Origin: Acidobacteriota bacterium
GTDB taxonomy: Bacteria; Acidobacteriota; Terriglobia; UBA7540
Direction: 5' to 3'
NCBI GenBank assembly: GCA_021838785.1
Contig: JAKCCV010000002.1
Coordinates: forward strand, 186,001-250,000
Length of the DNA: 64,000 bases
Position numbers and translations under genes: made by a program. The notes under the pieces are model-generated. The model made no database searches and was not told the DNA's origin. It saw nothing but the letters and a program-made list of their open reading frames with translations. Below are positions 39,707-43,299 of this stretch, one piece after another. Position 1 is the stretch's first letter; the number at the start of each line of letters is the position of its first letter.

Positions 39707-40600
39707 ATGAAAATTAGCTGTTGCTGGCTCTACGCCATCAGCAAATACGGTTATCCGCCTTCCTTGGAGAACACCTTTAAGGTGCTCAAGGAAATGAAGT
39801 CGCTCGGCTTTGACTATGCCGAGCTGGAAGGCGTGCGGCGTGAAAATCTGATGGCCGTTTATGACAACCGTCGCGAGTTGGCCAAGGTGGCGGACGGCGA
39901 AGGCTTGAAAATCATCAACTTCTGTCCCATTCTCCCAGGCTCCGTCAGCCTCAGCCGCCGCGAACGCGAGGAAGCCTGGGATTTGTTCAGCCGGGGCGTT
40001 GAAATTGCCCACGACTTTGGCTGCGTGACGATTCAAGCCGACAGTTTCACCCCGCCGCTCAAATTTCGCGGCGAGTCGCCGTACCAGGAAAGCATCCGTT
40101 ACGGCAAGCATTTTACGGTCGAGATTGACCCTGCCTTCGAATGGGGGCGCTTGTGGGACGCCATGGTGGAAAGTTTCAGCCGCTTTGCGCGAGAAGCCAA
40201 ATCGGCCAAACTGAAGTTTTGTGTTGAGCCGCGGGTCGGCGAACTGCTTTCCAACACCGACGCCATCCTGCGCATGATGGACGCGGTCGGCGATGAGAAT
40301 TTTGGCGCCGTCTTGGATACGGCGCACCTCAATGCTCAAAAAGAAATCCTCGCGCTGAGCGTGGAAAAACTCGGCAAGCAAATCTTTTTTGTCCACGCCG
40401 CCGATAACGATGGCCGCGTCAACGATCACTACGCCGCCGGACGCGGTACAGTGGATTGGGAGGGCGTCTTCCAGGGCCTCAAAAAGCACGGCTTTTCGGG
40501 CTATGTCGCGGTGGACGTCGGCATGGTGCCCGACCTCGACGCGCAATACCGAGAATCCATCGTGTTCCTCCAAAAAATGGCGGCTAAGTACCAGATCTGA
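39707..40600 (+). CDS. sugar phosphate isomerase/epimerase-like TIM barrel
   Basis: 297 residues of the xylose-isomerase-like AP-endonuclease-2 superfamily. 'FDYAELEGVRRENL' (the first metal-loop strand), 'VTIQADSFTPPLKF', 'KFCVEPRVGELLSNTDAI' (Glu ligand), 'GAVLDTAHLNAQKEIL' (Asp, His) and 'FFVHAADNDGRVNDHY' with 'DHYAAGRGTVDWEGV' (His and Glu) supply the divalent-metal site seen in tagatose-3-epimerase and hydroxypyruvate isomerase-like proteins. The family is very broad in acidobacteria and substrates vary. It is a soluble protein with no signal peptide. The ATG at 39707 is preceded by GGAGGAAA. Confidence 0.82.
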   Translation: MKISCCWLYAISKYGYPPSLENTFKVLKEMKSLGFDYAELEGVRRENLMAVYDNRRELAKVADGEGLKIINFCPILPGSVSLSRREREEAWDLFSRGVEIAHDFGCVTIQADSFTPPLKFRGESPYQESIRYGKHFTVEIDPAFEWGRLWDAMVESFSRFAREAKSAKLKFCVEPRVGELLSNTDAILRMMDAVGDENFGAVLDTAHLNAQKEILALSVEKLGKQIFFVHAADNDGRVNDHYAAGRGTVDWEGVFQGLKKHGFSGYVAVDVGMVPDLDAQYRESIVFLQKMAAKYQI

Positions 40601-40679: not shown

Positions 40680-41144
40680 TCAGCCTTCTTCCTTCAGCGC
40701 GTCGAGCACTTGGCCGATGTGCCCCTCCACCTTGACTTTTTCAAACACTCGGCGAACACGACCCGTGGGGTCAATGATGAAGGTGGTTCTGACAATGCCC
40801 ATCTTCTTCACGCCGTACATATTTTTTCCCTGCCACACGCCGTAGGCCTCCAGCATTTTGTGCGACGTGTCCCCGGCCAGCGGAAAATTCAGCTTGTATT
40901 TATCCCGGAATTTGGCCAGCGCCGCCACGCTGTCGGCGCTCACACCCAGTACTTGTGCGTTCAGTTTCTCCAGTTCTTTTTTGGCGTCACGGAACTGGTT
41001 CGCCTCGCTTGTTCAGCCGGGAGTGTCCGCCTTTGGGAAAAAGTAAAGGACCAACGTCCGGCCCGCGAAATCCTTCAACTGAATGTTCTTGCCTGTATCC
41101 GACGGCAGCCTGAAATCAGGAGCTTTCTCTCCGACCTTTAGCAT
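40680..41144 (-). CDS. selenocysteine peroxiredoxin (Bcp/PrxQ-like), in-frame TGA
   Basis: 154-residue thiol/selenol peroxidase of the AhpC-TSA/Bcp family if TGA at 41015-41013 is read as selenocysteine. Residues 1-43 give 'MLKVGEKAPDFRLPSD' (the usual Bcp opening) up to 'FFPKADTPG'. Position 44 is TGA, where every family member has the peroxidatic Cys (TPGCT). The frame continues without a gap into 'TSEANQFRDAKKELEKL', 'QVLGVSADS' and 'GKNMYGVKKMGIVRTTFIIDP', the full normal C-terminal half. The resolving Cys five residues on is Asn49, so it would be a one-chalcogen form. Ordinary ORF calling gives only a truncated C-terminal half from 40943. A stem-loop lies directly after the TGA. A nonsense mutation or sequencing error is the alternative. 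Confidence 0.8.
40983..41015 (-). promoter_or_regulatory. candidate bacterial SECIS hairpin after the TGA
   Basis: On the minus strand, eight bases after TGA, a hairpin begins: stem GGCG/CGCC (41001-41004 with 40983-40986), an internal A/GA mismatch, two more pairs (AC/GU) and a 7-base apical loop CAGUUCC. The loop begins 16 bases after the UGA and contains a G-U pair of bases, as in SelB-binding bSECIS elements. The stem is short, so this is a candidate only. Confidence 0.5.
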
Positions 41145-41346
41145 CGTGCTCTCCCCAAGAGGTGTGAAGTTCAAGTGAATTATAACTTATGCGAGGGTTC
41201 GTTTTGCGATCCGTCACGAGACGAGCGCGAGGAGAAGGAATGGTACTTGGAAACAGTTTCATTTTCCCTTGACCCAGGCTCCACGGGAGGCTAGTATCTC
41301 CCTTCTTTCGAGCTTCGGCATCTTGAGCCACGAGGAAAGAGGACTC

Positions 41347-43299
41347 ATGTTGAGGGAAGATTCCGATGGAATAAGCCGCCGAGATTTTCTGAAGGGGATG
41401 GGGACGGCAGGCGGGGCGGCCGCTGCTTCGCCTCTGCTCGGACTTGGCGCTGCGACGCCGCGGCCCGAGGCGGAGGAGTCAAACACGGTTCGATCGCACA
41501 CCCCCGGCGCCATGCGCCCGCAGCAGAACGAGTTTCGCAATCTGCTGGACCTTTCCGGTTTATGGCAGTTTCAACTCGACCCCAAAGACCAAGGCGAAAA
41601 CGACCGATGGTTTAATGGTTTGCCCTCGCCCCAACCGATTCCCGTTCCTGCCAGTTGGAATGAGCTATTCGACGACGCCGCCAATTATCTCGGCTTCGCT
41701 TGGTACGCCCTCGAGACCTATATTCCTAAAACTTGGGATGGCCAGAGGATTTTCCTCCGCGTTTATTCGGCCACCTACGCCGCCAAAATTTGGCTTAACG
41801 GAGAATTCGTTGGGGAGCATAAGGGCGGGCATCTGCCCTTTGCGTTCGAGATTACGCGCGGCGCGCGCCTTGGTCAATCGAACCGCATCGCCATTCGGGT
41901 TGAGAACTTCCAGAAGCCGGACCGTGTACCGCCCGGTCCTCCCACGGGGCGGGGCCTACAATTCCTTTCCAGCTATCCTGCCACCACGTATGACTTTTTT
42001 CCTTACGCCGGCATAGACCGGCAAGTGGCGCTCCACACTTGCCCTCCAACCCACGTTGAAGATATCACAGTCACCACGCGCATTGTGGGGAGCGATGGTT
42101 TGGTGACCGTGGCCGCCCGCGCCACGGGCAACTGGAGCGGCAAGGGACGGGCTGAGGTGGCCACCGATGCCGGCCCGGTTACGGCGGACTTGAACTTTGA
42201 AAAAGGCGAAGCCCAAAGCGAACTGCGACTACCCTCGGCGCATTTCTGGTCGCCCGATCATCCGCATCTCTATCGGCTCACCGTGAGTCTGCTCGAATCC
42301 GAGCGGCCTTTCGACGCCTACGCGCTCCACATCGGTGTCCGCACCATTGAGGTGCAGGGAGACCGATTGCTGTTGAATCATCAGCCCATCATCCTCCACG
42401 GGGTGGATAAACACGAGGATTTTCCTCTCCACGGCAAGGGGCTGTGCGTCCCGCAGCTCGTGCGAGATTACCAGTTGTTGAAATGGATGGGCGTGAACGC
42501 TTACCGCACCTCGCACTATCCCTATTCGGAAGAAGCTATGGAGTTGGCCGACCGCATCGGCATTTTGATTTTGGATGAAATCCCGGCCGTGGGCTTGAAC
42601 TTCAGCCGCAGCCAGCAGGACATCGAGGCCTGGACCGCGATGGCCCAAAGCCAGCTCCGTGATCTGATTGCGCGCGATAAAAATCACCCCAGTGTCATCA
42701 TGTGGTCGGTGGCCAATGAGCCGGGAGCCGGCCCGCGTCGGCGCGGAGGCGGACACAATCCGCGTGCCGTCGCGGCGGGCGGCGCTTACTTCACCAAAAT
42801 GGTTGCCTTGGCGCATCAGTTGGACCCGAGTCGTCCGGTCATCTTTGCCTCCGTGCAAGGCGGGCCGCGAGAATGGCTGAAATACGTGGACGTCATTGGC
42901 ATCAACCGCTACTTTGGTTGGTACTCGGACGGCGGCCGGCTGGAGTTGGCCGAGCAGTTGCTCGCCAAGGACCTCGATGCCATCCATGCCCTCTACAGTA
43001 AACCCATCATTCTGACCGAGTTCGGTGCGGATACGATCGCAGGGTGCCACAGCTTGCCGCCTCAAATGTGGAGTGAAGATTATCAGGCCGATTTGCTCGG
43101 CCGATACTTGGATGTGGCCGAAAAAAGACCCTTCATGGCGGGAACGCTCGTATGGTGCTTTGCCGATTTCCGCACGGGGCAAAACATCATTCGAGCCGAA
43201 GGAATGAATCAAAAGGGCGTTTTCACTCGAGACCGGCGTCCCAAGCGAGCCGCCCACCTTCTCCGGTCGCGCTGGCATCCATCAAAACCTGTGGCTTGA
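41347..43299 (+). CDS. Tat-exported GH2 glycosidase (beta-galactosidase/glucuronidase type)
   Basis: 650 residues counted from the ATG at 41347, chosen because it is preceded by an AGAGGA stretch and leaves a clean Tat signal (SRRDFLKG at residues ~10-17). The order is sugar-binding jelly-roll ('LSGLWQFQLDP', 'VYSATYAAKIWLNGEFVGEH'), Ig-like GH2 domain and TIM barrel. The catalytic acid/base is Glu458 in 'SVANEPG' and the nucleophile is Glu558 in 'ILTEFGAD'. 'HGVDKHEDFPLHGKG' and 'GVNAYRTSHYPYSEE' match bacterial beta-glucuronidase/galactosidase. The periplasmic enzyme probably degrades plant-derived oligosaccharides. The gene is divergent from the peroxiredoxin gene. Confidence 0.9.
   Translation: MLREDSDGISRRDFLKGMGTAGGAAAASPLLGLGAATPRPEAEESNTVRSHTPGAMRPQQNEFRNLLDLSGLWQFQLDPKDQGENDRWFNGLPSPQPIPVPASWNELFDDAANYLGFAWYALETYIPKTWDGQRIFLRVYSATYAAKIWLNGEFVGEHKGGHLPFAFEITRGARLGQSNRIAIRVENFQKPDRVPPGPPTGRGLQFLSSYPATTYDFFPYAGIDRQVALHTCPPTHVEDITVTTRIVGSDGLVTVAARATGNWSGKGRAEVATDAGPVTADLNFEKGEAQSELRLPSAHFWSPDHPHLYRLTVSLLESERPFDAYALHIGVRTIEVQGDRLLLNHQPIILHGVDKHEDFPLHGKGLCVPQLVRDYQLLKWMGVNAYRTSHYPYSEEAMELADRIGILILDEIPAVGLNFSRSQQDIEAWTAMAQSQLRDLIARDKNHPSVIMWSVANEPGAGPRRRGGGHNPRAVAAGGAYFTKMVALAHQLDPSRPVIFASVQGGPREWLKYVDVIGINRYFGWYSDGGRLELAEQLLAKDLDAIHALYSKPIILTEFGADTIAGCHSLPPQMWSEDYQADLLGRYLDVAEKRPFMAGTLVWCFADFRTGQNIIRAEGMNQKGVFTRDRRPKRAAHLLRSRWHPSKPVA

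Follow-up and report, generated by a model that had tools for sequence, protein, structure and literature searches.

The minus strand of the window, i.e. the whole 64,000-nucleotide stretch of acidobacterial DNA that was analyzed, carries a peroxiredoxin-like frame of 154 codons with a lone internal TGA at codon 44, which raises the question of how this TGA is read. The gene has no co-oriented neighbour, being flanked by a convergent and a divergent ORF (Table 1). The initial annotation described one complete frame with a TPG-U-T motif, Asn at residue 49 and 154 residues in total, conserved on both sides of the TGA without any change in length, and all of this holds: PF00578 matches residues 4-132 (139 bits), and the alignment to solved Bcp/PrxQ proteins (E 1e-34) is gap-free around the TGA. 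The Bcp/PrxQ assignment is also borne out by the NCBIfam Bcp model NF006960 (158.4 bits, above its cut-off of 140), and P37, T41, residue 44 (Cys or Sec) and R119 are invariant across 24 aligned sequences. AlphaFold, run on the window and locus proteins, returns a model with a pLDDT of 95 that superimposes on PrxQ/BCP structures with TM values of 0.92-0.97; the top match, 9a4d, is an integrative model and the next ones are crystal structures, with TM values of 0.92-0.94 to Burkholderia 5enu and to 5iiz, as expected for a PrxQ-type peroxiredoxin fold. The 154-residue translation is entirely free of cysteine. Residue 49, the +5 resolving-Cys position in helix 2 of many PrxQs, is Asn, and a resolving Cys of the Xanthomonas PrxQ Cys84 type is missing as well; most PrxQs, though not all, have a resolving cysteine, so that its absence is not decisive for membership. 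Judged from these comparisons, the frame encodes a Bcp/PrxQ-type peroxiredoxin that would differ from its relatives of the E. coli Bcp type (NF006960), Xanthomonas PrxQ and 5enu by having Sec in place of the peroxidatic Cys. Eubacterium acidaminophilum PrxU, of the NF040737 family, carries Sec. The likeness to PrxU put forward in the initial annotation stands as an analogy between Sec peroxiredoxins but not as family membership, as the PrxU model returns 59.3 bits against a cut-off of 270 and the two belong to different peroxiredoxin subfamilies.

Table 1. Features of the putative selenocysteine peroxiredoxin locus; positions are those of the window, and base numbers within the element are counted past the TGA.
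Feature	Coordinates	Strand	Details or basis
Predicted Sec-containing Bcp/PrxQ peroxiredoxin gene	40680..41144	-	ATG 41144, stop TGA 40682..40680, 154 residues, Sec at 44
Codon 44 TGA, probably read as selenocysteine, peroxidatic position PxxxTxxU	41013..41015	-	Ortholog codons in the order
Codon 49, Asn replacing the +5 resolving cysteine	40998..41000	-	Translation and alignment
Candidate recoding element, bases +4 to +43 past the TGA	40970..41009	-	Frozen synonymous positions
Hairpin A, covarying putative SECIS core	40983..41004	-	9-12 pair 27-30, 14-15 pair 23-24, conserved GUU 18-20
Helix B, CCAGUUC (15-21)/GAACUGG (37-43)	40970..40998	-	CAG-at-codon-50 lineage only
Sugar-phosphate-isomerase-like ORF	39707..40600	+	Convergent neighbour; name read off translation
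Glycosidase-like ORF	41269..43299	+	Divergent neighbour; name read off translation

The scan of relatives, with one genome per species, comprises 80 loci. In close acidobacterial relatives the identical codon is almost always TGA, and the position is kept in relatives from 95% to about 40% identity; Sec forms from Neomarinimicrobiota, Chloroflexi and other Acidobacteriota also have their TGA there, and 60 wider homologs have Cys at this position. A search of 40 genomes from the window's own order returned 35 orthologs, with TGA at codon 44 in 30 and TGC or TGT in the other five. Random stops elsewhere in the gene, which the initial annotation would have taken as the mark of a pseudogene or an error, are not seen in close relatives, where codon 44 alone varies between TGA, TGC and TGT. 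On the evidence of these assembled sequences, the conservation of TGA at one and the same codon goes far beyond chance. A separate case is L139, a Cys-type PrxQ whose in-frame TGA is at an unrelated site close to the N terminus (DGEUQT), which may be an error, a pseudogene or something else. Two alphaproteobacterial Cys PrxQ genes (L037, L041), devoid of the +5 resolving Cys, group next to the Sec clade of Acidobacteriota (support 90) and are possibly transferred and reverted copies. The resolving Cys is missing in 30 of 44 Sec genes versus 6 of 62 Cys genes; we make no claim of a link between Sec and its loss, as well-supported branches provide only four independent pairs, which fall short of significance in a sign test.

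The selenium machinery named in the initial annotation as a check (selA, selB, selC and selD) is entirely present in the source assembly (3.42 Mb, 38 contigs, 98.45% complete). SelA scores 570 bits, SelB 352 bits and SelD, whose gene has its own in-frame TGA, 374 bits. The tRNA-Sec (74.9 bits; reported by ARAGORN as tRNA-SeC, anticodon TCA) exhibits G73 ahead of CCA, a long variable arm and a UCA anticodon, and it is the sole UCA tRNA among eight tRNA-Sec-like candidates fetched from the genome, the other seven being ordinary Ser, Leu or Cys tRNAs. Both selA and tRNA-Sec are found in 18 of 18 genomes of the order with completeness of at least 90% and contamination of at most 5%. Of side interest, a gene for a thioredoxin-like protein (L001 1881-2480) is located near the tRNA-Sec of the window's genome. 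Reading of the UGA as another amino acid, for example as Cys by a selC*-type tRNA-Cys(UCA), or its unspecific readthrough, would agree with the Cys carried there by homologs, and selC* tRNA-Cys bearing a UCA anticodon are known from other phyla (PMC7609411). However, selC* tRNA-Cys carries U73 (PMC7609411), unlike the only UCA tRNA identified here, which has the G73 and long arms of a tRNA-Sec; moreover, selA and selD are intact, and the revertants of the order use TGC or TGT, a change that would be pointless were UGA already read as Cys. We consider this alternative very unlikely.

A mark of recoding lies in the codons that follow the TGA, measured as codon differences per pair of sequences encoding the same residue. 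Among 21 Sec relatives, this value is 12.9% at codons 46-58 (bases +4 to +42) versus 46-58% over most of the gene, and it reaches 56.5% at the same codons in a Cys-only control clade. The Sec clade was split by codon 50, which is CAG in 23 species and GAG in seven. In the CAG species, the differences drop to 0.035 at codons 46-50, 0.111 at codons 51-54 and 0.000 at codons 55-58, compared with 0.56 upstream and 0.48-0.59 downstream of the element, and 14 of the 23 share an identical 39-base stretch; in the GAG species, freezing is confined to codons 49-51. The edges of the constraint are sharp, codons 45 (0.55) and 59 (0.42) being free. Sec members have a mean of 0.35 synonymous changes at codons 46-58, whereas the remainder of the gene would predict 3.8. 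Because this synonymous constraint is absent from the Cys control clade, it indicates an RNA-level element directly past the TGA, unusually frozen over ~40 nt. Rfam search reports no match to it, and a mobile or viral repeat was rejected for lack of any viral-contig match and for its single copy in each fetched locus.

The same constraint bears on the two remaining alternatives. Termination at the UGA would leave a peptide of 43 residues, with the C-terminal part made separately from an internal start. This would fit the 87-aa GTG-started ORF (40943..40680) that ordinary ORF calling yields, but the fold could not be maintained by either piece, the TGA lies inside the peroxidatic motif and the constraint runs through it, making this reading extremely improbable. 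When a metagenome-derived genome shows one in-frame stop, an error is often to blame. At codon 44, however, the chance of a pseudogene or of a sequencing error, both envisaged in the initial annotation, or of an assembly error is vanishingly small: dozens of species, each assembled separately, share this TGA, the codons on either side are under full purifying selection, and the synonymous sites that follow are frozen.

The conserved TGA, the Sec machinery and the RNA-level constraint thus support the initial proposal of a selenocysteine peroxiredoxin: the gene almost certainly encodes a one-selenocysteine Bcp/PrxQ enzyme, with UGA 44 decoded as Sec via the downstream RNA element. Decoding would fall to SelB carrying Sec-tRNA(UCA), directed by the RNA element that occupies the ~40 in-frame bases past the UGA. 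The Sec44 selenolate would attack H2O2 or an organic hydroperoxide, and the resulting selenenic acid would be reduced by an outside thiol, either thioredoxin or a small thiol. Since the protein has no cysteine at all, such a one-Sec enzyme would be in need of an external thiol, the chain itself offering no resolving thiol to complete the cycle. Sec insertion itself, the peroxidase activity and the electron donor are what we infer from this arrangement.

Two competing helices can be drawn within the element. Hairpin A, in its full form, pairs bases 9-12 with 27-30 and 14-17 with 21-24. It corresponds to the hairpin that the initial annotation placed eight bases past the TGA with a loop 16 bases away; GGCG indeed follows after eight bases and the loop runs from base 16, the other helix, B, being its competitor. 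Pair 14-24 of hairpin A occurs as A-U, C-G, G-C, G-U and U-A, and in Sec genes base 24, at the third position of the Arg52 codon, changes together with base 14 (40/49 Watson-Crick versus a shuffled mean of 19.6, a value reached by 0 of 5000 shuffles, which leave relatedness in, the nested L014/L158 clade having changed both sides); the corresponding figures for Cys genes are 29/50 versus a shuffled mean of 29.5. Hairpin A as a whole also outscores every slid version. In diverged relatives, it folds as a clean bSECIS whose GUU loop lies 17 bases past the UGA, within the published rules (loop of 3-9 nt, G in the first two loop bases, 16-37 nt from the UGA, MFE <= -7.5; PMC13188914). In the window's lineage, the two top pairs are gone (C16-C22, A17-C21), and helix B then becomes possible. 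Of the bSECIS character suggested in the initial annotation, the energy stands (MFE -8.3 in the window), whereas the loop and G rules are only partly satisfied, hairpin A having no G in its first two loop bases and a spacing of 15 nt and helix B a 15-nt loop; both rules are satisfied in relatives such as L035 and L144. As folding energy is no better than that of codon-shuffled controls, hairpin stability was dropped as evidence, and synonymous constraint and covariation were used instead.

Helix B pairs in every CAG-lineage species and is invariant, and covariation cannot test it because its pairs never vary. A candidate covariation in L014 was rejected, since its sister L158 is devoid of helix B and the lone compensatory change may be due to chance. 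Helix B is compatible with the foot of hairpin A if the two form a pseudoknot, for which a rough, self-made energy sum beats 98% of the codon-shuffled versions of the window. The CAG-lineage signal might then be an H-type pseudoknot rather than an ordinary bSECIS hairpin, starting eight bases past the UGA, with GGCG/CGCC crossed by CCAGUUC/GAACUGG and an A-rich third loop; we regard this as a tentative and rather unlikely reading. If true, it would account for the freezing far past hairpin A, including the third-position A's of lysine codons, and would represent a distinct bacterial SECIS class derived from an ancestral hairpin. Sec PrxQ genes of other groups (L050, L056, L049, L055, L058) have downstream hairpins that differ from hairpin A in position and sequence.

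The history of codon 44 was followed on a DNA tree built without this codon and without the element. Within the order, the tree needs four Sec/Cys changes; with the outgroup it needs five, of which well-supported branches force four, one possibly being the outgroup pair L109/L145. The latter two genes, which lie outside the order, form a second sister pair of one Cys and one Sec gene (support 100/97) and have kept the resolving Cys. The five Cys genes of the order are nested among Sec genes and still have a residue other than Cys at the resolving position. In those of the CAG lineage, the element is at different stages of decay, with 0 synonymous changes in L024, 2 in L155, 4 in L156 and 6 in L023. 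Since L023 and L156 may share a single event (support 90/56), the sequences point to three to four Sec-to-Cys reversions within the order, the direction being taken from the nesting and the leftover element rather than from a rooted model. Three of the five Cys-codon genomes (G443, G464, G465) still have selA and tRNA-Sec, and neither was found in the assemblies of the other two (G462 and G470, only 88% and 77% complete). According to a 2026 review, prokaryotes have seldom exchanged Sec for Cys, and mostly in FdhA and SelD (PMC13188914); in contrast, this peroxiredoxin would have switched three to four times in one order, with differing stages of decay, making the order a natural experiment on selenium loss.

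The enzyme type is not new, as Sec-containing COG1225 peroxiredoxins with a TxxU motif have been known since 2005, from 43 Sargasso Sea sequences (PMC1088965), 12 bacterial genes (PMC1794560) and 78 organisms (PMC5029168), and the Sec-containing COG1225/PF00578 peroxiredoxins have been reviewed (PMC13188914). The window protein shares with them the family, the TxxU site, the predicted peroxidatic Sec and a putative SECIS directly downstream, but differs by having no cysteine at all and by an element that is near-invariant across most of the order and fits the bSECIS rules inexactly. No report of a Sec PrxQ for this order was found in the open-access literature. What is new, and unexpected to a specialist, is the frozen ~40-nt element together with the repeated reversions accompanied by its decay. 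The gene, split in two by ordinary calling, is restored across an order of uncultured Acidobacteriota, and its frozen element lends itself well to asking which features bacterial SelB must recognize. Also part of what is new are three additional predicted Sec genes of the AhpC/TSA family in the window's genome (L097, L098, L099; G000 C31:24343, C28:84842, C38:135445). These PF00578 proteins attain none of the curated NCBIfam cut-offs, and each has a single in-frame TGA at a redox position (FTAGUT, HWUPFC and FTPVUQ, respectively). Lastly, selD (L093 1483-2523; G000 C36:63703-64629) appears to be a selenoprotein gene itself, with the motif AAGUAAK and a strong hairpin past its TGA (-19.6 kcal/mol).
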